This document shows, in pieces, positions 39,969 through 52,426 of a DNA stretch of 64,000 nucleotides (its first letter is position 1; each line of letters begins with the position of its first letter). The notes under the pieces are model-generated. The model was not told the origin of the DNA. It did not search any database and saw nothing but the letters and a program-made list of their open reading frames with translations. A program made the translations under genes and the position numbers. Source of the DNA: Pseudoxanthomonas sp. Root65 (lineage in GTDB: Bacteria > Pseudomonadota > Gammaproteobacteria > Xanthomonadales > Xanthomonadaceae). The stretch spans positions 620,001 to 684,000 of the forward strand of contig NZ_LMHA01000002.1 in NCBI RefSeq assembly GCF_001427635.1. The letters are read 5' to 3'.

Positions 39969-40071
39969 GTGCGCACACGCAGGAGGCCCCAAGGCGGCCG
40001 TGCTTGGCTTGCATCGCCCGGCGCACGCACCGATGATGCGGGGCATCCTCGTTTCCCGTGCGTTTCGCGTC

Positions 40072-40662
40072 ATGCCCGCCACCCCCGCGTCCACCCCGCA
40101 AGGCGACCTGTTCGGCGGCCCACAGCCGGGCCGGCTGCATAGGCTATTCTTCGCGCTGGTGCCCTCGGCCGGCGAGCGCGAGGCCCTTCGTCACCGTGCC
40201 GATGACTTGAAGGCGGCGTTCCCGCAGGCGCGCTGGGTGCGCCCCGAGCGTTACCACCTGACCCTGCATTTTCTCGGCGAAAGCGATGGGCCCCGCGAGG
40301 ACATGGTGCGCACGGCGCACGAGGCCATGCAGGACTGGCAGCCGGAACCGGTCGGGATCACCCTCGACCACCTGCTGTGCCTGGGCAATCCGAAGAATCC
40401 CGCGCTGACGCTGGCGGCGCTGCACCCGTCGCCGGCGGTGGTGGCGTTCTGGCGCACTCTGCAGCAACGCCTGCTGCGCGCCGGCTTCAAGCAGCACGTG
40501 GGCCGCAGCTTCGTGCCGCACCTGACCCTGGCCTATGTGCCGCCGCGCACCGCGCCGGTGGACGTGCCCCCGGTGGTGCTGCACCCGCAGGGCGTGCACC
40601 TGCTGCAGAGCATCGAAGGCGAGGCGGACTACGACGTGCTTGGCGAGTGGCCGCTGGGGTGA
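40072..40662 (+). CDS. thpR: RNA 2',3'-cyclic phosphodiesterase (ThpR/LigT)
   Basis: A 2H phosphoesterase of 196 residues with both signature motifs, HLTLHFLGE (His62) and HLTLAYVPP (His150), and FFALVPSAGEREAL at the start. The family hydrolyses RNA 2',3'-cyclic phosphates and ligates certain tRNA halves in vitro. The ATG at 40072 gives the usual length; extensions to 39865 run over the REP pair and are not credible. The ribosome site is weak. Single gene. Confidence 0.87.
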   Translation: MPATPASTPQGDLFGGPQPGRLHRLFFALVPSAGEREALRHRADDLKAAFPQARWVRPERYHLTLHFLGESDGPREDMVRTAHEAMQDWQPEPVGITLDHLLCLGNPKNPALTLAALHPSPAVVAFWRTLQQRLLRAGFKQHVGRSFVPHLTLAYVPPRTAPVDVPPVVLHPQGVHLLQSIEGEADYDVLGEWPLG

Positions 40663-40730
40663 AGCGAGGCGCCCAGAGGCGCTAACATCGGCAACGCGAT
40701 GGGGATCGCGTCAGGGTAGGGGGAGTGATG

Positions 40731-43241
40731 ATGGGACATGCGATAGGGCGTCGCGCCATGGCGATGCTGATGCTGCTGTGCGGCCTGGCCAGCTTCGCGG
40801 CGCAGGCCAGCATGCGCGAGATCAAGCCCGACGACGCGGTCGCGCTGAAGCCGGGCGAAGGCCTGGTGCTGATGGCGGTGGACACGTCGGTGGACGTGGC
40901 CATGGTGCGGATGAACCGCGACGGCAAGCTGTTCGGTTCCGGGGTGATGCGCGACCTGAAGGAGGGACGCAACTTCCGCCTCTACGCCGTGCAGGCAGGC
41001 ACCTACGAGTGGCGGGAACTGCAGCTGGCGTTCGGTTACCGCTACACCTTGTCCGACGACGAGGATTTCCGCTTCACGGTCGAGCCGGGCCGCATTACCT
41101 ATCCGGGTGACCTGCTGTTCCGCCCGCGCAGCTTCTGGCGCGCGCGCTTCGCGTCCACCAACCGGTCGCTGGCGGCCATCGACTGGATGCAGAAGACCCA
41201 TCCGGCCATCTACGCGCAGTATCCGCTGGCGTTCTCGGGGCGTTACCCCGATCCGTTCCCCGCTTTCTACAAGCCGTTGCGCGCTGCCGCCAAGGAAGAT
41301 CCGACCACGCTGCCCGATCTGCGCGAACCCGCGCTCGCCTACGTGCTGCCGTTGCAGCCGGCCACCCTGTTCAAGCCCGAGCGGATTGTCCAGGCCAGCC
41401 TCAATCCGGCGGGTACGCTGCTCGCGTTGCAGGTCCGCAATGGCAAGGACGACTGGGGCGTGGACCTGGTCGACCTGCAGGGGCGGCAGGCGTCGCTGAT
41501 GGCCAAGAGTGCGGTGAAGTTCGATTCGGTGGAGTGGGCGGGCGACGACCTGCTGCTGTTGACGGTGGATCCGCCCCGCGGCCAGCAGATGGTGATCGCC
41601 ATCCGCATGGAAACCGACGCCTCCGGCGCGCGGCGCTATACGCGGATCAACCTGCCCAAGGGCGGGTGGGTGGTCGACACGTTGCCACGCGAGCCGGGCT
41701 ACATCCTGTTCGGCAGCGTGGCCCGCCAGGGCGGATTGATGGTACATCGGCTCGACATCAGCAGTCAGAAGGCCGTGGACGAGGCCAAGCTCCAGTATCG
41801 CGACCGCCTCAACCAGGGCGTCAAGGATGACCTGTGGTGGATGGCCGATGGCAACGGCGTGCTGCGGTTGGCGGTCGCCCGCCGCGGCGAGGACTACGTG
41901 CTGGTGTTGCAGGAGAACCTGGTATTCCGCGACGTGATGAAACTCGGCGGCGAGACCGACCTGGATCCGGTCGGGCTATCGCTCGACGTGCGCACGCTGT
42001 ATGCGCTGACCGATGCGGGACGCGGGCAGCGTGACCTCGTCGAGTACGACCTGGGGCGGAAGACGATCGGCCGTACCTTGTTCTCGCGTCCGGGCGTCGA
42101 TGTCGAGCACGTGCTCTTCGATGCGCAACGTACGCCCATCGGCGTGCAGTTCTACGAGGGAGGACTGCTGGTCAGCGAATACTTCCAGCCCGAGGACGCG
42201 CGCCTCGGGGCGCTGCTGGCGAAGGCGTTCCCCGGCAAGATGGTGCAGGTCGCCGACCGCAGCCGCGACGGGCGCCACGTGGTGCTGGATGTGGATGCCG
42301 CCGATCAACCGTCGCAGCTCTACCACCTGGACACGGTGAAAGGGACCGCGGAACTGCTGGACGATGCGGCGCCGTGGCTGGCGGCGGTGCGCTTCGCGCC
42401 GGCCCAGGTGCTCAGTTTCAAGGGCAAGGATGGCCTGCCGCTGGAGGCCTTCCTGACCGTGCCGCCCGGATCGGGCAAGCGGCCGCTCGTCGTCTTTCCG
42501 CATGGTGGCCCCATCGGCGTGGCCGACCGCCTGCATTTCGACCGCGAGGTGCAGTTCGTCGCGTCACTCGGATACGCAGTGCTGCAGGTCAACTTCCGTG
42601 GATCGGATGGCTACGGCCGGGCCTTCCGCGAGGCCGCTTACGGAGCGTTCGGCACCCGCATCGAAGACGATATCGACGCCGCCATCACGGCGGCGCTGGC
42701 GCGCCATCCGCTGGACGGCGACCGCATGTGCATGCTGGGCGCCAGTTACGGCGGTTATTCCGGACTGGTCGCGGCGGCACGTTGGCCGGAGCGCTTCCGC
42801 TGTGTGGTGTCGATCGCCGGCCCCAGCGACCAGACGTTGCTGTTCACGTCCAGCGACCTGGGCCGGACGGAAGCGTCCCGGGCCACGCTGGAAAAATACC
42901 TGGGCGATCCGGCCAAGGTGCTGGACGACATGCAGCGACAGTCCCCGCTCTATCAGTACGCCAGCATCCGTGCGCCGGTCATGCTGATACACGGTCTTGA
43001 AGACGAGCGCGTGGACTACGAGCACAGCCGTCGCATGGCGCGCATGCTGGCGTTGGCGGGTCAGCGCCCGGTGGGGCTGGCGTTCGAGAGCGAGGGGCAC
43101 AGTTTCGCCTCGCAGGAAAATCGCGAGAAAACCTGGAGTGCGGTCGCGGGATTCCTGCGCCAGCATCTCGGTGGCGATGCGCCCGCGCCTGCCTCCACCA
43201 CGCGGTCGGCGACGGCACCGGAATCCGTCGCGCTTCCCTGA
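40731..43241 (+). CDS. Secreted S9-family (prolyl oligopeptidase) peptidase with extra N-terminal domain
   Basis: The 836-residue product has a signal peptide (MGHAIGRRAMAMLMLLCGLA), an additional beta-rich region at about 30-135 that I cannot assign (LKPGEGLVLMAVDTSVDVAM), a propeller-like middle and a C-terminal alpha/beta-hydrolase domain. The triad is Ser672 (GASYGGYS), Asp758 (GLEDERVDYEHS) and His790 (EGHSF). AGGGGGAG lies five bases before the ATG at 40731; ATG 40728 and GTG 40725 are too close to it. It ends one base from a convergent TPR gene. Confidence 0.88.
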   Translation: MGHAIGRRAMAMLMLLCGLASFAAQASMREIKPDDAVALKPGEGLVLMAVDTSVDVAMVRMNRDGKLFGSGVMRDLKEGRNFRLYAVQAGTYEWRELQLAFGYRYTLSDDEDFRFTVEPGRITYPGDLLFRPRSFWRARFASTNRSLAAIDWMQKTHPAIYAQYPLAFSGRYPDPFPAFYKPLRAAAKEDPTTLPDLREPALAYVLPLQPATLFKPERIVQASLNPAGTLLALQVRNGKDDWGVDLVDLQGRQASLMAKSAVKFDSVEWAGDDLLLLTVDPPRGQQMVIAIRMETDASGARRYTRINLPKGGWVVDTLPREPGYILFGSVARQGGLMVHRLDISSQKAVDEAKLQYRDRLNQGVKDDLWWMADGNGVLRLAVARRGEDYVLVLQENLVFRDVMKLGGETDLDPVGLSLDVRTLYALTDAGRGQRDLVEYDLGRKTIGRTLFSRPGVDVEHVLFDAQRTPIGVQFYEGGLLVSEYFQPEDARLGALLAKAFPGKMVQVADRSRDGRHVVLDVDAADQPSQLYHLDTVKGTAELLDDAAPWLAAVRFAPAQVLSFKGKDGLPLEAFLTVPPGSGKRPLVVFPHGGPIGVADRLHFDREVQFVASLGYAVLQVNFRGSDGYGRAFREAAYGAFGTRIEDDIDAAITAALARHPLDGDRMCMLGASYGGYSGLVAAARWPERFRCVVSIAGPSDQTLLFTSSDLGRTEASRATLEKYLGDPAKVLDDMQRQSPLYQYASIRAPVMLIHGLEDERVDYEHSRRMARMLALAGQRPVGLAFESEGHSFASQENREKTWSAVAGFLRQHLGGDAPAPASTTRSATAPESVALP

Positions 43242-43242
43242 T

Positions 43243-44322
43243 TCAGTGCGCCAGCCGGCGCAGGGCATCCAGTTTGGCGTGGTAGAGCCGGCGTTGGTCG
43301 CCTTCGCTGAGACGCTCCGCACGCGCCAGCGCCTTGCCGGCGCGGCGGTGGTCGCCTTGCAGGAAGTAGGCCCGCGCCAGGCCGAAATGGAAGCGGTGTT
43401 CGTCGGGGAACAGCTTGATCGCTTGGCGGTAGTCGCGGATGGCTAGCTCGACGTTGCCCTCGCGCTCGTGCCTGGCGCCTTGCAGGAAGTGGTGGAACGG
43501 ATCCCGTGCCTGCACGCGCTGCAGGCGGGCCTGCAGGTGTGCGGCCGCCTCGACGTCGCCTGTGCGCTGGTAGTGCGCGGCCAGGTTGGACAGGGCGCCG
43601 GGGTCCAATGGGTTCAGCCGGAGGGCGTGCAGGTAGTGCTGTTCGGCCTGCTCCGGATCGCCGCGTCGCAGATGCAGCACGCCGGTATTGCTCCAGGTCA
43701 CCGCGTAGGTGGGGTCCAGTGTCTTCGCCACGCTGGCATAGCGCAGCGCGTCGTCCAGCCGTCCAGCTTCCAGCAGGTCGGCGGCGCGGTTGTTGTAGTA
43801 GTGCACCAGCAGGCGCGCGTCGCTGATCTCGCGGGGCGGCTTGCGTGCGATCACCTGGTCCCAGGCCACGTCCACCGTCAGTTGGCGGTGCCGGATGCGC
43901 ACCCCGGCATTGACGTGGTGGGTGCGGTAGAGGGTGTCCTGTTCCTGCCGCCACGCCAGCGTTTCGTCGATCTGCTGTCCGTAGGCCTGCAAGCCGGCCT
44001 CCCGCGCCAGCGCGATGGCGAGCAGGGTGAAGCTGAGGCAGTTGGCCTGCCGGGTGGCGTAGGCCTCCGCCACGGTGTGGTTGGCGGTGATGTCGTAGCG
44101 CATGCCCAGGTCGTCGGGCGAGAACAGGAACTCGACCATCCGCCGCAGGCGCTGCTCGGACTTGCGGGGCGTCGTCAGTACCTTGGCGTGGAACTCGCGG
44201 CGCAGCGGCTCGGGCAAGGCCATGACCTCGGCCGGCGTCGGCGGTTGCGCGGAGGGCGCCGGGGCGGCAGCGGGGGCCAGTCCGGCCATGGCCAGCGTGG
44301 CGGCCATCAGGGTAGCGATCAT
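43243..44322 (-). CDS. Exported transglutaminase-like and TPR-repeat protein
   Basis: A 359-residue protein with a signal peptide (MIATLMAATLAMAGLAPAAA). Residues about 60-165 form a transglutaminase-like domain with the candidate nucleophile in RQANCLSFTLLAIALAREAG; TPR repeats fill 180-350 (YNNRAADLLEAGRLDDALRY, AEQHYLHALRLNPLDPGALS). Proteins with this pairing in gammaproteobacteria are uncharacterised but probably periplasmic. It is divergent from trxC, 87 bp away. Confidence 0.82.
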   Translation of the reverse strand: MIATLMAATLAMAGLAPAAAPAPSAQPPTPAEVMALPEPLRREFHAKVLTTPRKSEQRLRRMVEFLFSPDDLGMRYDITANHTVAEAYATRQANCLSFTLLAIALAREAGLQAYGQQIDETLAWRQEQDTLYRTHHVNAGVRIRHRQLTVDVAWDQVIARKPPREISDARLLVHYYNNRAADLLEAGRLDDALRYASVAKTLDPTYAVTWSNTGVLHLRRGDPEQAEQHYLHALRLNPLDPGALSNLAAHYQRTGDVEAAAHLQARLQRVQARDPFHHFLQGARHEREGNVELAIRDYRQAIKLFPDEHRFHFGLARAYFLQGDHRRAGKALARAERLSEGDQRRLYHAKLDALRRLAH

Positions 44323-44397
44323 CGTGCGGCCCTCGTCGAGGAGAACGATGCCCGCAGTCTATGCGCTGTGGCGATGCAGCATGGGCGGCCCCGGCGT

Positions 44398-44403
44398 TAG
44401 GAT
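44398..44403 (+). promoter_or_regulatory. -10-like element (TAGGAT) six bases before the trxC ATG
   Basis: TAGGAT, six bases, then ATG at 44410. The spacing is the same as at 5245, 55093 and 56447 and fits a leaderless transcript; the AGGA within the hexamer might alternatively serve as a ribosome site. Confidence 0.35.
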
Positions 44404-44409
44404 GTGCGC

Positions 44410-44850
44410 ATGGATGCCGCCGCCCACCTGATCGCCTGTCCGCACTGCGCTGCGATGAACCGCGTGCCCTCGGAGCGGCTGGTGGAGGCGCCCCAGTGCG
44501 GGCGCTGCCACGAGGCGCTGTTCACCGGGGTGCCGCTGGCGCTGGGGGAGGCGGACTTCGATCGCCACGCACTGCGCAGCACGTTGCCGTTGCTGGTCGA
44601 TTTCTGGGCGCCCTGGTGCGGCCCCTGCCTGCAGATGACGCCGCATTTCGAGCGCGCGGCGGGCCTGCTGGAGCCGGCCGTGCGGCTGGCCAAGGTGGAC
44701 ACCGACGCCAGCCCGGGGCTGGGCAACCGCTTCGGCATCCGCAGCATCCCGACCCTGGTGCTGCTGCAGGGTGGCCGCGAGATAGCCCGGCAGAGCGGGG
44801 CGATGCAGGCGGAGGGGATTGTGCGGTGGGTGAGGGACGTGCGGGTTTGA
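44410..44850 (+). CDS. trxC: Thioredoxin 2 (TrxC)
   Basis: A 146-residue thioredoxin with the zinc-binding N-terminal extension of TrxC (C10xxC13 and C30xxC33) and the active site WCGPC at 69-73. TrxC reduces cytosolic disulfides and is linked to oxidative stress. Its stop overlaps a TTG start of the GNAT gene (TTGA), so trxC, the GNAT and the borosin methyltransferase could be read on one transcript. Confidence 0.93.
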   Translation: MDAAAHLIACPHCAAMNRVPSERLVEAPQCGRCHEALFTGVPLALGEADFDRHALRSTLPLLVDFWAPWCGPCLQMTPHFERAAGLLEPAVRLAKVDTDASPGLGNRFGIRSIPTLVLLQGGREIARQSGAMQAEGIVRWVRDVRV

Positions 44851-45392
44851 AGCTGCCGACGTTGGAAACGGGACGCTTCCGTATGCGGCCACTCAGCGCC
44901 GAAGACGCCGCGCTGTATGTTGCGCTGTATACCGATCCCGAGTTGATGCGCCATGTGGCCGAGCCCTTGGAAACGGGCGCAGCACTGCAAGCGTTCACCA
45001 AGGTGGCGTCGTTCAACCGGCTAGAAAGCAAGGACTATCGGACGTGGGTGGTAGTCGAGAAAGCCGAGGGACATGAGATCGGTTTGCTGGCACTCGTGGC
45101 AAGGGACGCCATGCACGAGATCGGTGCCCTGATCTGGCCAAAGCACCATAACGGCGGGGTCGCGACGGAGATCATTCGCCGATTGATGGATTTCGCTTTC
45201 ACGGAGGGCGGCTGCGAGACAGTCTTCACGAGTCACCGGGTGGAGAACGGCGGGGCCGAAGGTCTTATGCGGAAGCTGGACTTCCAACGCATCCCTGCGG
45301 AAGGGCATCTCTCTGGAGGCGTAAGGTGGGAACGGACGCTTGCGCACTGGCAGCGCGCGTCTTGCAACGAACTAATCCAGGGGAAAGTATGA
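44847..45392 (+). CDS. GNAT-family N-acetyltransferase coupled to the borosin genes
   Basis: A 181-residue acetyltransferase (LKLPTLETGRFRMRPLSAED) of the RimJ/RimL-like group, with an acetyl-CoA region near GALIWPKHHNGGVATEIIRR and ENGGAEGLMRKLDFQRI at the end. The start is inferred as TTG at 44847, overlapping the trxC stop; GTG at 44826 is the alternative. Its stop overlaps the ATG of the borosin methyltransferase by four bases (ATGA), which is strong evidence for joint expression. It may acylate the peptide product or confer self-protection; neither is shown. Confidence 0.8.
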   Translation: MKLPTLETGRFRMRPLSAEDAALYVALYTDPELMRHVAEPLETGAALQAFTKVASFNRLESKDYRTWVVVEKAEGHEIGLLALVARDAMHEIGALIWPKHHNGGVATEIIRRLMDFAFTEGGCETVFTSHRVENGGAEGLMRKLDFQRIPAEGHLSGGVRWERTLAHWQRASCNELIQGKV

Positions 45393-46183
45393 AAAAGGGA
45401 AGTCTGGCCTGCGTCGGCACCGGGATGATGCTGGGTGCCCACATCGGTCCGCGCGCGCGCCGCCACATCGAGGAGGCTGACGTGGTCTTCGTGGCCGTTT
45501 CCGATCCGCTGGTGGAAAAGTGGGTCCAAGGGATGAATGCCGATGTGCGGAGCCTCCAGCCTTACTACGTTGAGGGTAAGCCGAGGACCGAGACCTATCG
45601 GGAGATGGTGGCCGCAATCATGGCGGAAGTACGCGAAGGACGCAGGGTTTGCGGTGCCTTCTACGGTCATCCGGGCGTGTTTGCCGGGGTGCCGCACCGG
45701 GCGGTCGCTCAAGCCAGGCAGGAAGGTCACACGGCATTGATGGAGGCCGCGGTGTCGGCCGAGGACTGTCTGTATGCAGACTTGGGTGTCGACCCGGGCA
45801 CCTACGGCTGCCAGCACTACGAAACTAGCCAGTTCATGTTCTACAGGCGACGGATTGACCTGACGGCCTATCTCGTTCTTTGGCAAGTCGGCGTGGCGGG
45901 GGATCAAACGCTGGCGAGGCTTTCGTCAACAGGGGCTGGAGCCAGGCAGATCCTTGTCGACCTGTTGGCGGAGCACGGGTACTCGAGTAGCCACGAGGTC
46001 ATAGCGTATGAAGCTGCCGTGGTGCCTATTCATTCCCCCCGGATCGATCATATGCGGCTTGCCGCGCTGCCGGATGCAGATCTGAGGCTACAAACGACCT
46101 TGGTCATCCCCCCGTTCCACCGGATGGAGCGCAACGAGGAGGTGTTAGCCCGGCTGGGAGTCCTTCCGGCCGGAGGCGGCTAG
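45389..46183 (+). CDS. Borosin-type peptide backbone alpha-N-methyltransferase (SonM-like)
   Basis: A 264-residue protein of the tetrapyrrole-methylase (class III) fold. MKKGSLACVGTGMMLG, FYGHPGVFAGVPH, ADLGVDPGTYG, SQFMFY, LVLWQVGVAGDQTL, HEVIAYEA and TLVIPP follow in the order I recall for SonM, the split borosin methyltransferase of Shewanella. Candidate catalytic residues Tyr59/Tyr60, Arg66, Tyr70 and Tyr92 lie where the OphMA/SonM family keeps its Tyr-Arg-Tyr-Tyr set. It would use SAM to methylate backbone amides of the precursor encoded next. It lacks the C-terminal fused precursor of fungal OphMA, hence split type. Confidence 0.9.
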   Translation: MKKGSLACVGTGMMLGAHIGPRARRHIEEADVVFVAVSDPLVEKWVQGMNADVRSLQPYYVEGKPRTETYREMVAAIMAEVREGRRVCGAFYGHPGVFAGVPHRAVAQARQEGHTALMEAAVSAEDCLYADLGVDPGTYGCQHYETSQFMFYRRRIDLTAYLVLWQVGVAGDQTLARLSSTGAGARQILVDLLAEHGYSSSHEVIAYEAAVVPIHSPRIDHMRLAALPDADLRLQTTLVIPPFHRMERNEEVLARLGVLPAGGG

Positions 46184-46329
46184 GCGGAGCGTGGTGGAGG
46201 CGTGTGCCAAAAGACGGTATCTTCGGCCTGCTAGGCCCGCGAATCGGGTGGCGCTGGCGCCCTTGGGGACCGCACGTCGGAACGTGGTGGGCTGTCGGCT
46301 TTAATCTATTGATCTAGGGGAACATATTC

Positions 46330-46605
46330 GTGTCGAATCTTCTGCGCTTGATGGAATCGTTGGGTGCTGCGCCACAGTTGGGCGACATGTCGGTTGAAGA
46401 GTATCTCGCGGCGATGGAGCAGTTCGGGGTTGAGGGAAGGGCAAGGCAGGCTGTGCTGGCCCGAGACGTGCATACGCTTTACGCGCTTGAGCAGACGCGC
46501 AGCAAGATGATCTGCATGATTGCCACGCCCGGTGGCGAAGAAGAACAGGATGCACCCCAGCCGGACGATGTGTCCGAGCCGCGTGAAGAGCCTGCGGAAG
46601 AGTAA
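46330..46605 (+). CDS. Split-borosin precursor peptide
   Basis: A GTG-initiated 91-residue peptide. Residues 1-58 form a helical, leader-like domain (LLRLMESLGAAPQLG, VEEYLAAMEQFGV, RDVHTLYAL) that lines up in pattern with the borosin-binding domain of SonA. A short hydrophobic core KMICMIATPGG follows (about 59-69), then a strongly acidic tail rich in Glu, Asp and Pro. GGGGA precedes the start by nine bases, in an unusually A/T-rich leader. The methyltransferase gene ends 146 bp upstream. Which residues are methylated and whether the core is cut out cannot be read from sequence. Confidence 0.85.
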   Translation: MSNLLRLMESLGAAPQLGDMSVEEYLAAMEQFGVEGRARQAVLARDVHTLYALEQTRSKMICMIATPGGEEEQDAPQPDDVSEPREEPAEE

Positions 46606-46623
46606 GCGGGCACGCTTTTCTTT
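46604..46623 (+). terminator. Weak hairpin with T-rich tail after the precursor
   Basis: A 5-bp stem AAGCG / CGCTT with a GGCA loop, beginning within the precursor stop, is followed by TTCTTTC. It could attenuate read-through into the TPR-GGDEF gene and raise precursor over downstream expression. Confidence 0.3.
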
Positions 46624-46650
46624 CGGATGCGACGACATGGAGCTGAATGG

Positions 46651-48456
46651 ATGAAAGCGTACATCACCCGGTATGGATGGCTGGCCCTGGTCGCAGTTGT
46701 TCTGACGCTGCCCGCGAAGGCGGGCGCGTCATTTGATGCCTTGTTCGATGAGGCGGACGCTATACGGACGTCCAAGCCGGAACAGTTCTTCAAGATACTC
46801 AAGCAGCTTGAGGCGCTCGAGGAGGCGTCGACGCCCGATCAGCGCATGAAGATTCGTCTGATGCGCGCGCATGGATTCCTGTTGGAGGGCAGGGCGGAAG
46901 CAGCTATCCGGGATCTGGAAGAGATCCGTACGGGCCCGGCAGATGTCGCTGTGAGGTTTCGCGCCGGCGCAATGCTGGCCAACACTTACGCAGGCAACCG
47001 GAAATTCGAGCAGGGTCTCAGCACGCTCAATGAGATGCTGCCGTTGGTCACCGAGGTGAAGGACCGCGCCGCCCGCCATCACGGGCTTCTGGCGGCGGGC
47101 ATCCTCTATAACCGTGTCGGTGAATTCCGGCTTGGCGGAGAGTACGCCAATCAGGTGCTATCCGATGAGCCATCCGGACGCAGCCAATGCATTGCAGGCA
47201 ACTTAGTCGTGGAAGCCCTGCAGGGCGAAGGGAAGACGCCGGCCGAAGAGAAGATCTACGGCGCCATCCAGAACTGCGAGCGTGAAGGCGAGACGCTGCT
47301 CGCCGCATTTTCACGAACTTATTTAGCCAAGAAGTGGCATGCGGAAGGCAAGACATCTAACGCGATCAATCTGCTCGAGAAACATCTTCCTTCGGTAAGA
47401 GCCACGGGCTACCCGGTGTTGATCGCCGAGTACTTATCGATGCTCGCCGAGTATCAGATGAAACTCGGCAACGTGGAATCGGCAGAGAGGCACGCTAAGG
47501 ACGCGGTCGCGCAGGGGAAATCCATTGCCGGGTCATTGCCCTTGGTCGTGGCATACCGTGTTCTTTACGAGATCGCCAATCTCCGTGGCGAGCCTGCAGT
47601 CGCACTTGAGCAGTACAAGAAGTATGCAGAGGCTGACAAGGCGTATCTCAACGAGATCAAGACGCGCGAGTTGGCATATCAACTTGTACGGCAGCAGATC
47701 GTCCAGAAGACCCAGCAGATCGATCTGCTGGATCAGGAAAATCAGGTTCTACAGTTGCAGCGCAAAGTCGACCAGCAGTCCGCGCAGAACACACGTCTGA
47801 TCGTCATCCTGTTGATACTCCTGATCGCCTCGATCGGCTACTGGGCCTTCAAGATCAAGCGGGTGCAGCTGTCGCTGAAGAAGATGGCCGAGACCGATGC
47901 GCTGACCGGCATCTGCAACCGCCACCACTTCACCATCCGCGCCGAGCGCGCGCTGGCCGAGTGCGCCCGGAACGGCGAACAGGCCTCGCTGATCATGTTC
48001 GACCTGGACCACTTCAAGAACATCAACGACCGCTTCGGCCACGGGGTCGGCGACTGGGCCTTGAAGGAAGTGGCCGAAGCCAGCAAGGGCTTCTGCCGGC
48101 GCATCGACGTGCTGGGCCGCCTGGGCGGTGAGGAATTCGCCATCCTGATGTACGGCTGCGACCTTCGTGCCGCCTCCCGTGTGGCCGAAGACTGCCGTGT
48201 CCGGTTGGCCCAGATCGAAACCCGCGAGACCGGCCACGTATTCGCGATCACCGGCAGCTTCGGCGTGACCTCCAGCCAGCACTCCGGGTACAGCCTGGCC
48301 AAGCTGCTCTCGCATGCCGACAAGCAGCTCTACCGCGCCAAGCACAACGGCCGCAACCGCGTCTGCGTGTACGACGCAGAGCAGGAAAACGTCCGCGCCG
48401 CCAGCAACGTGCTGGAGATGCCGCAGCGCGACCGCACGGAGCACCTCGGCGCCTGA
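46651..48456 (+). CDS. TPR-GGDEF diguanylate cyclase, periplasmic sensor type
   Basis: A 601-residue protein with signal sequence MKAYITRYGWLALVAVVLTL, a periplasmic helical-repeat (TPR-like) region to about 330, a coiled coil (QKTQQIDLLDQENQVLQLQR), a membrane span near 380-400 and a cytoplasmic GGDEF domain with GGEEF at 492-496 and an RRID I-site before it. GGAG precedes ATG 46651. The first 1.1 kb is visibly poorer in GC than the GGDEF-coding part after about 47.8 kb, suggesting a mosaic gene. It starts 45 bp after the borosin precursor. Confidence 0.87.
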   Translation: MKAYITRYGWLALVAVVLTLPAKAGASFDALFDEADAIRTSKPEQFFKILKQLEALEEASTPDQRMKIRLMRAHGFLLEGRAEAAIRDLEEIRTGPADVAVRFRAGAMLANTYAGNRKFEQGLSTLNEMLPLVTEVKDRAARHHGLLAAGILYNRVGEFRLGGEYANQVLSDEPSGRSQCIAGNLVVEALQGEGKTPAEEKIYGAIQNCEREGETLLAAFSRTYLAKKWHAEGKTSNAINLLEKHLPSVRATGYPVLIAEYLSMLAEYQMKLGNVESAERHAKDAVAQGKSIAGSLPLVVAYRVLYEIANLRGEPAVALEQYKKYAEADKAYLNEIKTRELAYQLVRQQIVQKTQQIDLLDQENQVLQLQRKVDQQSAQNTRLIVILLILLIASIGYWAFKIKRVQLSLKKMAETDALTGICNRHHFTIRAERALAECARNGEQASLIMFDLDHFKNINDRFGHGVGDWALKEVAEASKGFCRRIDVLGRLGGEEFAILMYGCDLRAASRVAEDCRVRLAQIETRETGHVFAITGSFGVTSSQHSGYSLAKLLSHADKQLYRAKHNGRNRVCVYDAEQENVRAASNVLEMPQRDRTEHLGA

Positions 48457-48465
48457 GGGGCTTCG

Positions 48466-49554
48466 TCAGGGTGTATCGGCGAGCGGCTGCAGGTCCTCGT
48501 CGATCGCCAGCTGGTTGCGGCCCCGGCTCTTGGCCTGATAAAGCGCGCGATCCGCCGCTTCCAGCCACGCGCGCAGTCCCTCGGCCGATCCGGTCGCCTT
48601 CGCCAGCCCCAGGCTGACCGTCGGCTGCAGCCCCGGCGCGCTCTCCGGCCTCAGCGCCTGTACGCCTTCGCGGATCCGTTGGGCCACGATGCCTGCCGCC
48701 TCCACATCGGTCCCGCGCAGCAATATCGCGAACTCGTCGCCGCCCAGCCGGCCGGCCGCGTCGTGGCTGCGGATGCTGTGGCGGATCACCTGCGCCGTCG
48801 CCCGCAGCACGTCGTCGCCGGCCGCGTGGCCATGGCGGTCGTTGATCGCCTTGAAGTGGTCGATGTCGATCATCAGCAGCGTGGCCGGCTCGCCGGTCGC
48901 CGCGCACTGGTCCATCAACAGGGCGGCCTGTTCCTGCCAGTGGCGGCGGCTGTCCAGCGCCGTCAGCGTGTCGCGCCGGCTCAGTTCGTCGAGCTGCCGG
49001 TTCTGCCGCTTCACCTTGCGCACCAGTCGGTAGCTGGCCTGGCTCACGGCGATCGAATGGATCATCAGCATGGGCAGGCAGGCGACCATCACCGCCATGC
49101 TGGTCATCGGCTGCATCTCGAAGCCGGTCGACACCCCGACCGCCAGCGCGCCCGCCGCCATCAGCGGCAGCGACCAGTACCACAGCCTGTCGATGCCGGT
49201 GCTGATCTTGTCGACGGTGGTGAGCGTGACGAGCAGGACGCTGGGCAGCAGGTTGAAGGCCATCAGCGGCACCCACATGCCCGCGAGGATCGAATCGACC
49301 AGAAGGTTGCGGATCTCGCCGCGGAAAGGCGCCGGATGGCGCAGCGCCAGCCACAGCGCGAGCTGCGGCCAGACCACGGTGGTGAACAGGAGGAACACCC
49401 AATGGCCCGCGCCGGCCTGGTTCTCCAGCAACACCATGCCGGTCGGCAACGCCGCCAGCCCCATGCCGAGCGTACGCAGGCGATGGATCCGGCGCGGCAG
49501 GCGTTGGGTGTGGCGCTCCGGATCGGTCCCGGGCGACGGTGCGGTGAACGGCAT
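48466..49554 (-). CDS. MASE2-GGDEF diguanylate cyclase
   Basis: A 362-residue membrane protein. Five or six hydrophobic spans (GMGLAALPTGMVLLENQAG; WVFLLFTTVVWPQLALWLAL) form a MASE2-type sensor as in AdrA/DgcC; the GGDEF domain has LLMIDIDHFKAINDRHGH, GRLGGDEFAIL and a preceding RSHD I-site, so it should be active and product-inhibited. I used ATG 49554 (MPFTAPSPG); an ATG at 49587 is also possible. It is convergent with the TPR-GGDEF gene, with nine bases between stops. Confidence 0.85.
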   Translation of the reverse strand: MPFTAPSPGTDPERHTQRLPRRIHRLRTLGMGLAALPTGMVLLENQAGAGHWVFLLFTTVVWPQLALWLALRHPAPFRGEIRNLLVDSILAGMWVPLMAFNLLPSVLLVTLTTVDKISTGIDRLWYWSLPLMAAGALAVGVSTGFEMQPMTSMAVMVACLPMLMIHSIAVSQASYRLVRKVKRQNRQLDELSRRDTLTALDSRRHWQEQAALLMDQCAATGEPATLLMIDIDHFKAINDRHGHAAGDDVLRATAQVIRHSIRSHDAAGRLGGDEFAILLRGTDVEAAGIVAQRIREGVQALRPESAPGLQPTVSLGLAKATGSAEGLRAWLEAADRALYQAKSRGRNQLAIDEDLQPLADTP

Positions 49555-49738
49555 TGGCGCTGGAGTTCCCTTGCTCGTGGCGGCCATCCCCGGTGCGCCC
49601 GGGAGTAGCCGGAGTGTAGGCGAAAGCGTGATGGCGGGCACGCTGCGGAGTGATGCCACGTCAGCGGCCGCAGGCGCGGATTCTTGAGTGTGTGGACGAT
49701 AATCGGACGCGCGTCCCGCGCGGCTTTCCCAAGTGTCC

Positions 49739-50395
49739 ATGCCCCGCCTTGCCACCGTCCCCGCACGTATTCCAGTGCCTCCCCGAGTCTCCGCGCTTGC
49801 GGCCATGTCGGGCGCAGGCGCGTTCCTGTTGGTGGCGGGTTCGCTGCAGGTCGTGCGGGGCGACCTCGATTGGCAGCAGGCCACACTGAGCCAGTACCTG
49901 TCGGGTCCCGGCGGCCTGTTGTTGCGCACCCTGTACTGCGTGCTGGCGGCCGCGATCGTGTTGCTGGCGACCGGCCTGTATGCGCAGCTGTCGGCGAAGG
50001 CGCGCAGTGGCGCGCCGTTGCTGCTGCTCTGCTTCGGTGCGCTGGCACTGGCGGGCGTGGCGATCGGTGACTCGTGGTTGCCGCAGGTGGCGCCGGACTT
50101 CCATCACTGGTTCCACCACACGTGCGCCATCACGGCGTTCCTGTGCGTCACCACCGGCATGGTGCTGCAGGCATGGCGGTTCCGCATGGACGACCGTTGG
50201 CGCCACCACTTCCCGCTGGCTGCAATGTGGTCGGTCGCGTGCTACGCACTGCTATGGCTGCATGCGCTGTGGCCGCCGGCGGGGCAGGGCTGGGTGCAGA
50301 AACTGTTGATCGCGCTGATTGTCCTGGCCATGTGGCTGGGCGGATGGTGGCTGTGGCGCGCCGCCGCCGGTGCGGTGGTCGGGTCGCAGCGCTAA
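49739..50395 (+). CDS. DUF998-family membrane protein
   Basis: A 218-residue protein with six hydrophobic segments, e.g. SGAGAFLLVAGSLQVV, YCVLAAAIVLLATGLYAQL and LLLLCFGALALAGVAIGD. The DUF998 hallmarks are the SQYLSG motif in the first loop and a histidine-rich FHHWFHHTCAITAF segment. Function unknown; members are scattered in bacteria. GTG 49733 is an alternative start. It precedes a RidA-family gene on the same strand. Confidence 0.78.
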   Translation: MPRLATVPARIPVPPRVSALAAMSGAGAFLLVAGSLQVVRGDLDWQQATLSQYLSGPGGLLLRTLYCVLAAAIVLLATGLYAQLSAKARSGAPLLLLCFGALALAGVAIGDSWLPQVAPDFHHWFHHTCAITAFLCVTTGMVLQAWRFRMDDRWRHHFPLAAMWSVACYALLWLHALWPPAGQGWVQKLLIALIVLAMWLGGWWLWRAAAGAVVGSQR

Positions 50396-50424
50396 GCTGC
50401 AGACCTCACAACGGAGGAAATCCC

Positions 50425-50769
50425 ATGATCCAGCGCTTCGAGGTAGGCCCGCGGCTGTCCGAGATGGCCATCCACAACGGCGTGGTGTACCTGGCCGGGC
50501 AGATTGCCGAAGACGCGACGCAGGGCATCGCCGGGCAGACGCAGCAGGTGCTGGCCGAGATCGACGCGCTGCTGGCCCGTGCCGGCACCGACAAGTCGAA
50601 GATCCTACGCGCCGAGATCTTCATCAAGGACCTGCAGGATTTCGAGGCGATGAACCGCGTATGGGACGCCTGGGTGCCGGAGGGCAATGCGCCGCCGCGC
50701 GCCACCGTGCAGGCCAATCTCGCACGGCCGGCCTGGCTGATCGAGATCGTGGTGACCGCCGCCGTCTGA
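50425..50769 (+). CDS. RidA-family protein (YjgH-like)
   Basis: A 114-residue enamine/imine-deaminase-fold protein: LSEMAIHNGVVYLAGQIAED, ILRAEIFIKDLQDFEAMN and PPRATVQANLARP follow the family. The active-site arginine of RidA (in the PxRxxVxxxxLP region) is present as PPRATVQ. This subgroup (YjgH-like) is distinct from housekeeping RidA. A GGAGG ribosome site precedes the ATG; a 70-residue gene follows after three bases. Confidence 0.88.
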   Translation: MIQRFEVGPRLSEMAIHNGVVYLAGQIAEDATQGIAGQTQQVLAEIDALLARAGTDKSKILRAEIFIKDLQDFEAMNRVWDAWVPEGNAPPRATVQANLARPAWLIEIVVTAAV

Positions 50770-50772
50770 GTC

Positions 50773-50985
50773 ATGGCCACGCGCAAACCCGGCCCCTGGC
50801 AACGCCCCGCGCCCAAGCGTCGTGGGGGTGCTTCGAAGCTGACGCCGGCACAGGTGGAGGAAGCGCGTGCCCGCGCAACGGCGGCGGGCCGACGCTATCC
50901 CAATCTGGTGGACAACATGTACGTGGCTGCCAAGGCGCGACGCACGTCGGAGCCGGCAATCCACGTTGACGAGGAAGCAGAATGA
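50773..50985 (+). CDS. Small basic protein, 70 residues
   Basis: MATRKPGPWQRPAPKRRGG is a basic N-terminus; LTPAQVEEARARATAAGRRY forms a helix; PNLVDNMYVAAKARR completes the fold. The gene begins three bases after the ridA-like stop and probably is cotranscribed. I do not recognise a named family. The even amino-acid use and tight spacing support a real gene. Confidence 0.7.
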   Translation: MATRKPGPWQRPAPKRRGGASKLTPAQVEEARARATAAGRRYPNLVDNMYVAAKARRTSEPAIHVDEEAE

Positions 50986-51032
50986 AGGTGCATGCCGCGT
51001 GAGGACAAGCATGCACATCCTGCCGTAAAGCG

Positions 51033-51061
51033 CTGTAACAAAACTGCTGCGTAACGCTAAC
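51033..51061 (+). promoter_or_regulatory. Pho-box-like array of three 7-mers
   Basis: CTGTAAC, CTGCTGC and CGCTAAC follow one another with four-base spacers, the 11-base periodicity of PhoB sites (consensus 7-mer CTGTCAT or similar). The region lies between two convergent genes, so no coding gene is an obvious target. Confidence 0.35.
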
Positions 51062-51100
51062 CGGGCCTCAACAATCGGTCGCGTATCGTGCGCCCACGTT

Positions 51101-51152
51101 CCGCAGCCGCTGCGGCACGCACTCCCCACGGTGCGCGCCGCAGCCCCTGCGG
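51101..51152. other. Two near-identical hairpins
   Basis: CCGCAGCCGCTGCGG (51101-51115) and CCGCAGCCCCTGCGG (51138-51152) each form a perfect 6-bp stem with a three-base loop. They lie downstream of the Pho-like array and before the 3' end of the flavoprotein gene, with no T-tract. They might be part of a small RNA or act as terminators. Confidence 0.35.
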
Positions 51153-51160
51153 ACGACCAA

Positions 51161-52426
51161 TCAGACGCTGCGTTCCAGCCAGTCGATCACGCCCCGTGCG
51201 GCACGTCGACCGCTGGCGAAGCACGCCGTCAGCAGGTAGCCGCCGGTGGGAGCTTCCCAGTCGAGCATCTCGCCGGCGGCGAACACGCCGGGCACCTCGC
51301 GCAACATAAGATGCGTATCCAGCGCTTCCAGCCGAACGCCGCCGGCGCTGCTGATCGCCTCGGCGATCGGGCGCGGGCGCTGCAGCCGGAACGGGAAGCG
51401 CTTCAGCGTGCGGGCGATGCGTGCGGAGTCGGCCAGCGCCGCCTTGTCCAGCACTTCGTACAGCAGCGCGGCGCGCAAGCCGCTGACGACGGCCTCACGA
51501 CGCAGGTGCTCGCTGAGGCTGCGCGAGCCGCGCGGCTTGGCCAGGCGCCGCGAAAGGTCTGCCTCGTCGCGCCCGGGCAACAGGTCCAGGATCAGCGTCG
51601 TTGCGCCGTCGCGCGCGATGGCGTCGCGCAGCATCGGCGACAGCGCGTAGACCAGGCTGCCTTCGATGCCGGTGGTGGTGATGACGCATTCGCCCTGGCG
51701 CTGCTGCGCCACGCCGTCGGCGTCCTGCCAGTGCGCGACGACCGGCTTGAGGGGTTCGCCGGCGAAACGCGAAGCCAGATGCTCGCTCCATCCGATATCG
51801 AAGCCGCAGTTCGACGGCTGCAGGGCTGCGACGGAAACACCCTTGGCCTCCAGCGCCTCCACCCACGCGCCGTCGGACCCCAGCTGCGGCCAGCTGCCGC
51901 CGCCCATCGCCAGCACCGTCGCGTCGGCATGCAGCGTGCGCTCGCCATCGGGCGTCGCGAAGCGCAACGCGCCGTCGTCGTTCCAACCCAGCCAGAGGTG
52001 CTGCGCATGGAAGCGCACGCCCTGTTCGCGCAAGCGCCGCACCCAGCCACGCAGCAGTGGCGCGGCTTTCAGGTCGGACGGAAACACGCGGCCCGAGGTC
52101 CCGACGAAGGTCTCCACGCCCAGGCCGCGCGCCCATTCGCGCAACGCATCGGCATCGAAATCGCGCAGCCAGGCCGCGACCTCCTGCTTGCGCTCTGCGT
52201 ACCGGCTGACGAAGACCTCGAAAGGGTCCGAGTGGGTCAGATTCATGCCGCCCTTGCCGGCGATCAGGAACTTGCGCCCCACCGAGCCCTTGGCGTCGTA
52301 CAGATCCACCTGCAGGCCCGCGGCGCGCAGCGTTTCGGCGGCCATCAGACCGGCAGGGCCACCGCCTATGACGGCGACGCTTCGCGGTGGGGAAGAATCG
52401 TCGGGGCGTGGCGAAGGCATCGGCAT
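51161..52426 (-). CDS. BaiN/HI0933-type flavoprotein (TIGR03862 group)
   Basis: A 421-residue FAD-dependent oxidoreductase with the dinucleotide fold VAVIGGGPAGLMAAETL, GRKFLIAGKGGMNLTHS, and the C-terminal FAD site GVFAAGEMLDWEAPTGGYLL. GGMNLTHS in place of GGRCNFTN marks the TIGR03862 subgroup. It is a paralogue of the gene at 62444-63625. The start is at 52426 or 52420 (both ATG); the upstream region has a 15-bp palindrome overlapping the start. Substrate unknown. Confidence 0.85.
   Translation of the reverse strand: MPMPSPRPDDSSPPRSVAVIGGGPAGLMAAETLRAAGLQVDLYDAKGSVGRKFLIAGKGGMNLTHSDPFEVFVSRYAERKQEVAAWLRDFDADALREWARGLGVETFVGTSGRVFPSDLKAAPLLRGWVRRLREQGVRFHAQHLWLGWNDDGALRFATPDGERTLHADATVLAMGGGSWPQLGSDGAWVEALEAKGVSVAALQPSNCGFDIGWSEHLASRFAGEPLKPVVAHWQDADGVAQQRQGECVITTTGIEGSLVYALSPMLRDAIARDGATTLILDLLPGRDEADLSRRLAKPRGSRSLSEHLRREAVVSGLRAALLYEVLDKAALADSARIARTLKRFPFRLQRPRPIAEAISSAGGVRLEALDTHLMLREVPGVFAAGEMLDWEAPTGGYLLTACFASGRRAARGVIDWLERSV

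Follow-up and report, generated by a model that had tools for sequence, protein, structure and literature searches.

What does a peptide-methylating system do when its genes adjoin the gene of a predicted membrane sensor? This question is raised by a locus of Pseudoxanthomonas sp. Root65, lying in a stretch of 64,000 nucleotides (positions 620,001 to 684,000 of contig NZ_LMHA01000002.1; hereafter the window, whose own numbering is used throughout), in which a gene for a predicted SonM-family peptide backbone α-N-methyltransferase, a gene for a small precursor peptide and a gene for a protein with TPR and GGDEF domains follow one another on the + strand. A first-pass annotation had placed the first two open reading frames (ORFs) precisely where they are found, at 45389–46183 and 46330–46605, and had read them as a split borosin, i.e., a system in which the methyltransferase and the peptide that it methylates are encoded by separate genes. 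The answer developed below, which we hold at slightly better than even chances, is that the TPR-GGDEF protein is the likely receptor of the matured peptide, which would in this way set the levels of the second messenger cyclic di-GMP (c-di-GMP). It is this conserved precursor-receptor unit that is the interesting part of the locus.

The methyltransferase and its precursor

The product of 45389–46183, with 264 residues from an ATG start, is matched in Pfam by TP_methylase (E 3.9e-15), a label under which it might be a porphyrin, corrin or diphthine methylase with an unrelated ORF downstream. The chance of this is negligible: SonM is a far better match in a search of the PDB (E 4.7e-70 over residues 4–261; 47% identity), the fungal OphMA, dbOphM and MroMA also match (E 2e-49 to 7e-41), and every one of the 25 distinct sequences matched with E ≤1 is a borosin enzyme, none being a porphyrin or diphthine methylase. 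The NCBIfam tetrapyrrole models score far under their cut-offs on this protein, and the precursor is conserved beside it; an identity as a tetrapyrrole, porphyrin or diphthine methylase was accordingly rejected. The tetrapyrrole-methylase fold with SonM-like character that had been read from the sequence is in this way borne out. In SonM, activity is reported to fall upon mutation of Y58, R67, Y71 and Y93 (PMC8429565), residues that align in the PDB alignment with Y60, R66, Y70 and Y92 of the window's enzyme; these are invariant among 29 aligned homologues and are kept in 235, 234, 235 and 235, respectively, of 236 aligned enzymes. Of the Tyr59/60-Arg66-Tyr70-Tyr92 set proposed earlier, Tyr60 is the conserved member of the tyrosine pair, Y59 being found in just 96 of the 236, and the other three positions hold.

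The 46330–46605 gene encodes 91 residues from a GTG start. Its leader, residues 1–53 (46330–46488), is a predicted borosin-binding domain with five predicted helices at residues 2–12, 14–18, 21–30, 35–42 and 46–53 of a structure model that begins at residue 2; there follow a predicted core, residues 58–69 (SKMICMIATPGG; 46501–46536), placed by profile alignment to SonA and extended by eye, and an acidic C-terminal tail, residues 70–91 (46537–46602). The borosin-binding domain of SonA likewise comprises residues 1–53, and SonA is methylated at L63 and I65 (PMC8429565), with which M63 and A65 of the window's precursor are in register by an ungapped leader alignment carried into the core by eye; backbone methylation is predicted around these two residues. 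Aspartate and glutamate average 39% past about residue 66 in 130 relatives that were chosen for acidic tails. The precursors of L039 and L059 (uncultured Steroidobacter and Povalibacter) have long lysine-rich tails that are not purely acidic, with a total of 143 residues.

Used alone as a query, the precursor has no match in the PDB and falls among only 4 protein clusters in all, its own included, and a profile of precursors was therefore needed. This profile, made from 49 such precursors, all of them enzyme-linked, matches the SonA of the PDB (E 2e-4), and among the folds listed the best matches of the precursor model are SonA chains, at modest scores. Since the profile matches SonA and a similar precursor adjoins the enzyme in 79 of 80 loci, the 91-residue ORF is no chance reading frame. 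The earlier description of a peptide with a helical leader and a short hydrophobic core agrees with the five helices, the core in SonA register and the acidic tail. Judged by sequence and modeled fold, the two genes are a type IV split borosin pair and a new member of that type, so that the split-borosin reading is upheld by a SonM-family enzyme, a separate precursor gene, a five-helix leader and SonA-like fold matches.

With the Shewanella pair SonM/SonA (PDB 7LTC, PMC8429565), this pair shares a separate enzyme and a precursor of the borosin-binding-domain type, together with the catalytic residues and the core register; it differs from it in the long acidic tail and cysteine-containing core (MICMIA) of the precursor and in the overlap of the enzyme gene by a GNAT acetyltransferase gene. 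The fused fungal borosins (OphMA, dbOphMA, MroMA) have a homologous methyltransferase domain, whereas in the window the leader and core are encoded by a gene of their own.

Conservation of the three-gene arrangement

The arrangement was followed through several sets of loci, some genomes being common to the first two. The named set consists of the best 80 named loci from an enzyme scan of genome contigs (Pseudoxanthomonas, Lysobacter, Luteimonas, Arenimonas, Rheinheimera, Alkalimonas, Dyella, Rhodanobacter, Steroidobacter and others); the order survey covers 151 genomes of the order of Pseudoxanthomonas, with cut-offs of E ≤1e-20 for the enzyme and E ≤1e-12 for the TPR domain; and the further sets are 43 enzymes in 40 hand-picked regions from the order of Rheinheimera and 7 distant enzymes at the level of the class. 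With SonM as the query, the enzyme turned up in 95 genomes out of 394 for the order of Rheinheimera and in 9 out of 369 for the class.

A precursor with a borosin-binding-domain-type leader and a TPR-GGDEF gene come after the enzyme, on its strand, in 79 of the 80 named loci, and in the sole exception, L046, the contig stops just past the enzyme. It is because the same three genes are together in so many related loci that the peptide is likely a signal for the sensor. In a census of neighbor families within 6 kb of the enzyme, which took in only ORFs of at least 150 residues and left smaller families unannotated, the commonest family besides precursor, sensor and GNAT occurs in 14 of the 80 loci, and the window's own outer neighbors are rare (S9 peptidase 2, transglutaminase-TPR 5, thioredoxin-like 6); these low counts argue for linkage of the trio rather than for general synteny.

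Across the 151 genomes of the order survey, 71 have the enzyme and 67 the TPR domain—63 with both, 8 with the enzyme only, 4 with the TPR domain only and 76 with neither (Fisher p 2e-28, a test that ignores shared ancestry)—and 4 of the 8 enzyme-only genomes (G009, G113, G128, G149) do have TPR sequence adjoining the enzyme. The precursor profile matches 47 genomes, all enzyme-positive, a co-occurrence that is not fully independent because the profile was built from enzyme-linked precursors. TPR matches lie within 8 kb of an enzyme in 83 cases of 108; among the remaining 25, a precursor matched by the profile stands no more than 2.5 kb away in 6. At the same thresholds, the genome of the window holds a single copy each of enzyme, precursor and TPR domain. 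Counted by enzyme, a precursor, a TPR protein and a TPR-GGDEF protein accompany, respectively, 87, 78 and 76 of 88 enzymes in the order survey, 37, 41 and 31 of the 43 from the order of Rheinheimera, and 2, 2 and 1 of the 7 distant ones.

The same arrangement, i.e., a precursor and then a TPR-GGDEF gene, is found with L238 and L239, whose enzymes are 98–99% identical to SonM. As the L238 precursor in addition matches the SonA of the PDB (E 2e-38), both regions are taken to be from Shewanella.

Two further loci deserve mention. L107 (2830–4464, − strand) has a 545-residue ORF with two TP_methylase stretches that adjoins a TIR-TPR protein, and L156 (G085:C11:357500–366000) has a precursor on each side of the methyltransferase, with no TPR or GGDEF match in the stretch.

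Apparent pairing of precursors and sensors

Precursor and TPR protein appear to go together as a pair, as suggested by shifts in gene order that keep the partners, by the recurrence of pairs within loci and by the swapping of the output domain with the TPR part retained. The order may be enzyme-precursor-sensor or precursor-sensor-enzyme, with the GNAT gene before or after, the partners being constant; over 200 distinct precursor-sensor neighbors the median gap from the precursor match to the TPR start is 180 bases. Among loci with more than one sensor, at least two precursor-sensor pairs are present in 6 of the 9 that belong to the named set and in 6 of the 13 from the order survey; in the others a sensor lacks a detected precursor of its own. 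The extreme is L157 (G080:C10:35000–47500), with one methyltransferase amid five TPR-GGDEF genes and three precursors. In a first count, 79 of 87 GGDEF ORFs with a TPR-like part were paired, as were 84 of the 93 precursors, five sensors being counted as unpaired only through the overlap of stop-to-stop ORFs; a second sensor is truly unpaired in L007, L028 and L067, and an extra precursor has no sensor directly behind it in L034, L043 and L073.

The pairing also extends away from the enzyme. Seven precursors adjoin a sensor at sites that are over 5 kb distant from every enzyme match. Among 20 stretches around enzyme-distant sensors, a precursor at E ≤0.01 is present in 7 (L083–L087, L089, L093), one at E 0.4 in L092 and none in 12. 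As for the output, 10 TPR proteins without a GGDEF match were scanned, of which 7 have histidine-kinase domains (L201, L202, L250, L255, L270, L271, L272), some with receivers and others with none, and 3 are TPR only, with no output domain (L244, L276, L277).

The predicted sensor and its likeness to known receptors

The third gene, 46651–48456 (+ strand), encodes a 601-residue membrane protein that by Pfam and hydropathy is a predicted diguanylate cyclase with a periplasmic TPR sensor, i.e., a predicted membrane sensor that makes the second messenger c-di-GMP. The ATG at 46651 was chosen for the signal-peptide-like N-terminus that it gives; the longer ORF begins at 46627. The GGDEF domain (47887–48360; Pfam E 5e-42) has an intact GGEEF motif, and the TPR part (46714–47781), the proposed peptide receptor, is predicted to be periplasmic, hydrophobic segments lying on both sides of it in 219 of 233 relatives by hydropathy only. 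A cysteine pair in this ectodomain (codons 47188–47190 and 47275–47277) is kept in 231 of 231 GGDEF-linked TPR regions, as against 3 of 6 other TPR regions aligned. Convergent with this gene is a second one for a diguanylate cyclase, of MASE2-GGDEF type (48466–49929, − strand).

By fold comparison, the AlphaFold2 model of the ectodomain (pLDDT 96.9) is a superhelix of the Rap type: the Rap pheromone receptors align best among the folds listed, with other TPR proteins close behind. The likeness to the RRNPP receptors (Rap, NprR, AimR) lies in a TPR superhelix comparable in size and course and in an adjacent small peptide gene, but the identity of the TPR parts is only ~10%, the window's protein is predicted, from hydropathy only, to be periplasmic and membrane-anchored instead of cytoplasmic, the output is GGDEF or a histidine kinase and not helix-turn-helix or phosphatase-type, and the proposed ligand would be backbone-methylated and lacks a signal peptide. 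A parallel may also be drawn with the TPR-GGDEF protein RcbB of Vibrio vulnificus, whose TPR part is reported to hold a diguanylate cyclase in repression until a partner relieves it; RcbB, however, is predicted to be cytoplasmic and its partner is another TPR protein (PMC12282931). The word borosin is absent from the main text of that paper.

Weighing the alternatives

The two-gene peptide locus of the first-pass annotation stands as to the enzyme and precursor, but its span leaves out the TPR-GGDEF gene (46651–48456) and the GNAT gene (44847–45392): the product appears to belong to a larger unit in which it probably signals to the adjacent TPR receptor. Several observations weigh against such a role. 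There is no such module around five class-level enzymes with 31–42% identity to SonM. In six loci of the order survey (L184, L106, L110, L114, L118, L104) the GGDEF gene lacks this TPR part, the arrangement being GGDEF gene, ~520-residue ORF, precursor, methyltransferase; the ORF between GGDEF gene and precursor is an amine oxidase in all four scanned (L106, L118, L104, L184), and the one GGDEF protein scanned, that of L184, is of the 7TMR-DISM type. No widespread protease or exporter was seen within 6 kb in the census of ORFs of at least 150 residues, its families being unannotated. Further, sensors without a precursor exist, and the covariation of core and TPR part is weak (partial correlation 0.07 over 134 pairs, with GGDEF and enzyme distances allowed for).

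Secreted products are often under the control of c-di-GMP. The pair might be a conventional split borosin whose end product is a secreted compound, be it antimicrobial, metal-binding or of another kind, with the TPR-GGDEF protein controlling production or export in answer to some other cue and binding no peptide. Borosins were indeed found as natural products (PMC8429565, PMC11285071), and the sensors lacking precursors fit this account. We nevertheless consider it rather unlikely: a regulator of production need not adjoin precursors that are distant from the enzyme, nor need it swap its output while retaining the TPR part, and no candidate family for export or self-protection is widespread nearby, smaller families being unannotated.

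Another possibility is that no core is released and that the methylated precursor in its entirety, or else just the helical leader, does the work, as a small regulatory protein with direct binding to the TPR part. This would be in keeping with the stronger covariation of leader and TPR part (0.30, against the 0.07 of the core, and beside 0.31 for leader and enzyme) and with the dearth of a widespread protease family nearby. It is improbable, and more so than the secreted product: the precursor has no evident signal peptide, whereas the TPR part is predicted to be periplasmic, and the covariation test keeps shared ancestry in and has little signal to draw from so short a core.

If the matured peptide is instead the ligand of the sensor, a course of events can be proposed. 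The enzyme, precursor and sensor genes, a same-strand run conserved as a trio by homology and position, would furnish its parts: docking of the leader on the enzyme is predicted to resemble that of SonA on SonM, and the residues around M63/A65 would be methylated from N to C. The core would be released by a protease not seen nearby and might be capped by the GNAT enzyme; methylation would aid this hydrophobic peptide in crossing the inner membrane, no conserved exporter being seen nearby. In the periplasm it would bind the TPR superhelix and thereby alter the activity of the GGDEF domain, or of the histidine kinase in relatives with that output.

Neighboring genes

The GNAT acetyltransferase gene (PF13302; 44847–45392, + strand, TTG start inferred) is recognized by the Pfam family Acetyltransf_3 (E 6.7e-23, scored on the longer ORF 44361–45392), and its stop shares 4 bases (ATGA) with the start of the methyltransferase gene. 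A same-strand GNAT gene lies within 1.5 kb of the methyltransferase in 61 of the 80 named loci, in 28 of 88 in the order survey and in 15 of 43 in the order of Rheinheimera; a role as a capping enzyme is possible. Upstream, a thioredoxin-like ORF (44404–44850, + strand; CPHC and WCGPC motifs by eye) overlaps the GNAT start so assigned by 4 bases.

A gene of the prolyl-oligopeptidase (S9) family (40725–43241, + strand) precedes that of the methyltransferase by ~2 kb; we take OphP, an enzyme of fungal omphalotin, to belong to this family. OphP is termed a serine peptidase (PMC12235650). The S9 gene was considered as a counterpart of OphP, as in the fungal borosins, and was dropped, since S9 matches occur in just 2 of the 80 related loci. 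A search of the same genome for a shewasin-type pepsin-like protease had no matches, the control also having none, and is hence uninformative. An Rfam scan of 40000–52000 had no c-di-GMP riboswitch or other RNA above the gathering score, F6 appearing below threshold at E 0.6.

Significance

In PMC11395268, a GGDEF label belonging to a set of borosin architectures is explained in the legend to Figure 1; a link of some kind between borosins and GGDEF is thus already in print, and the claim to novelty is limited by that published label. In the literature searched, no paper linking borosins and diguanylate was found, though borosin studies beyond it may describe these neighborhoods; nor was one found there on borosins and Lysobacter, or on ribosomally synthesized and post-translationally modified peptides (RiPPs) together with diguanylate cyclase, TPR, histidine kinase and N-methylation.

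A broader and more tentative reading, which we would put at somewhat below even chances, is that split borosins of gammaproteobacteria, in many cases and with SonA among them, are backbone-N-methylated signals with periplasmic Rap-like TPR receptors—a Gram-negative counterpart of RRNPP—in which N-methylation aids membrane crossing and pairs multiply around a shared methyltransferase. The receptors would form a family dedicated to this task, with either a diguanylate cyclase or a histidine kinase as the output. That a receptor candidate tracks the precursor through changes of gene order, some duplications and swaps of output makes the role of split borosins testable, and the likely Shewanella loci, where enzyme and precursor are already characterized, share the same arrangement. 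If the proposal is true, engineers would gain a methylated ligand together with its natural TPR receptor, and a ribosomal N-methylated peptide would be placed in c-di-GMP signaling.
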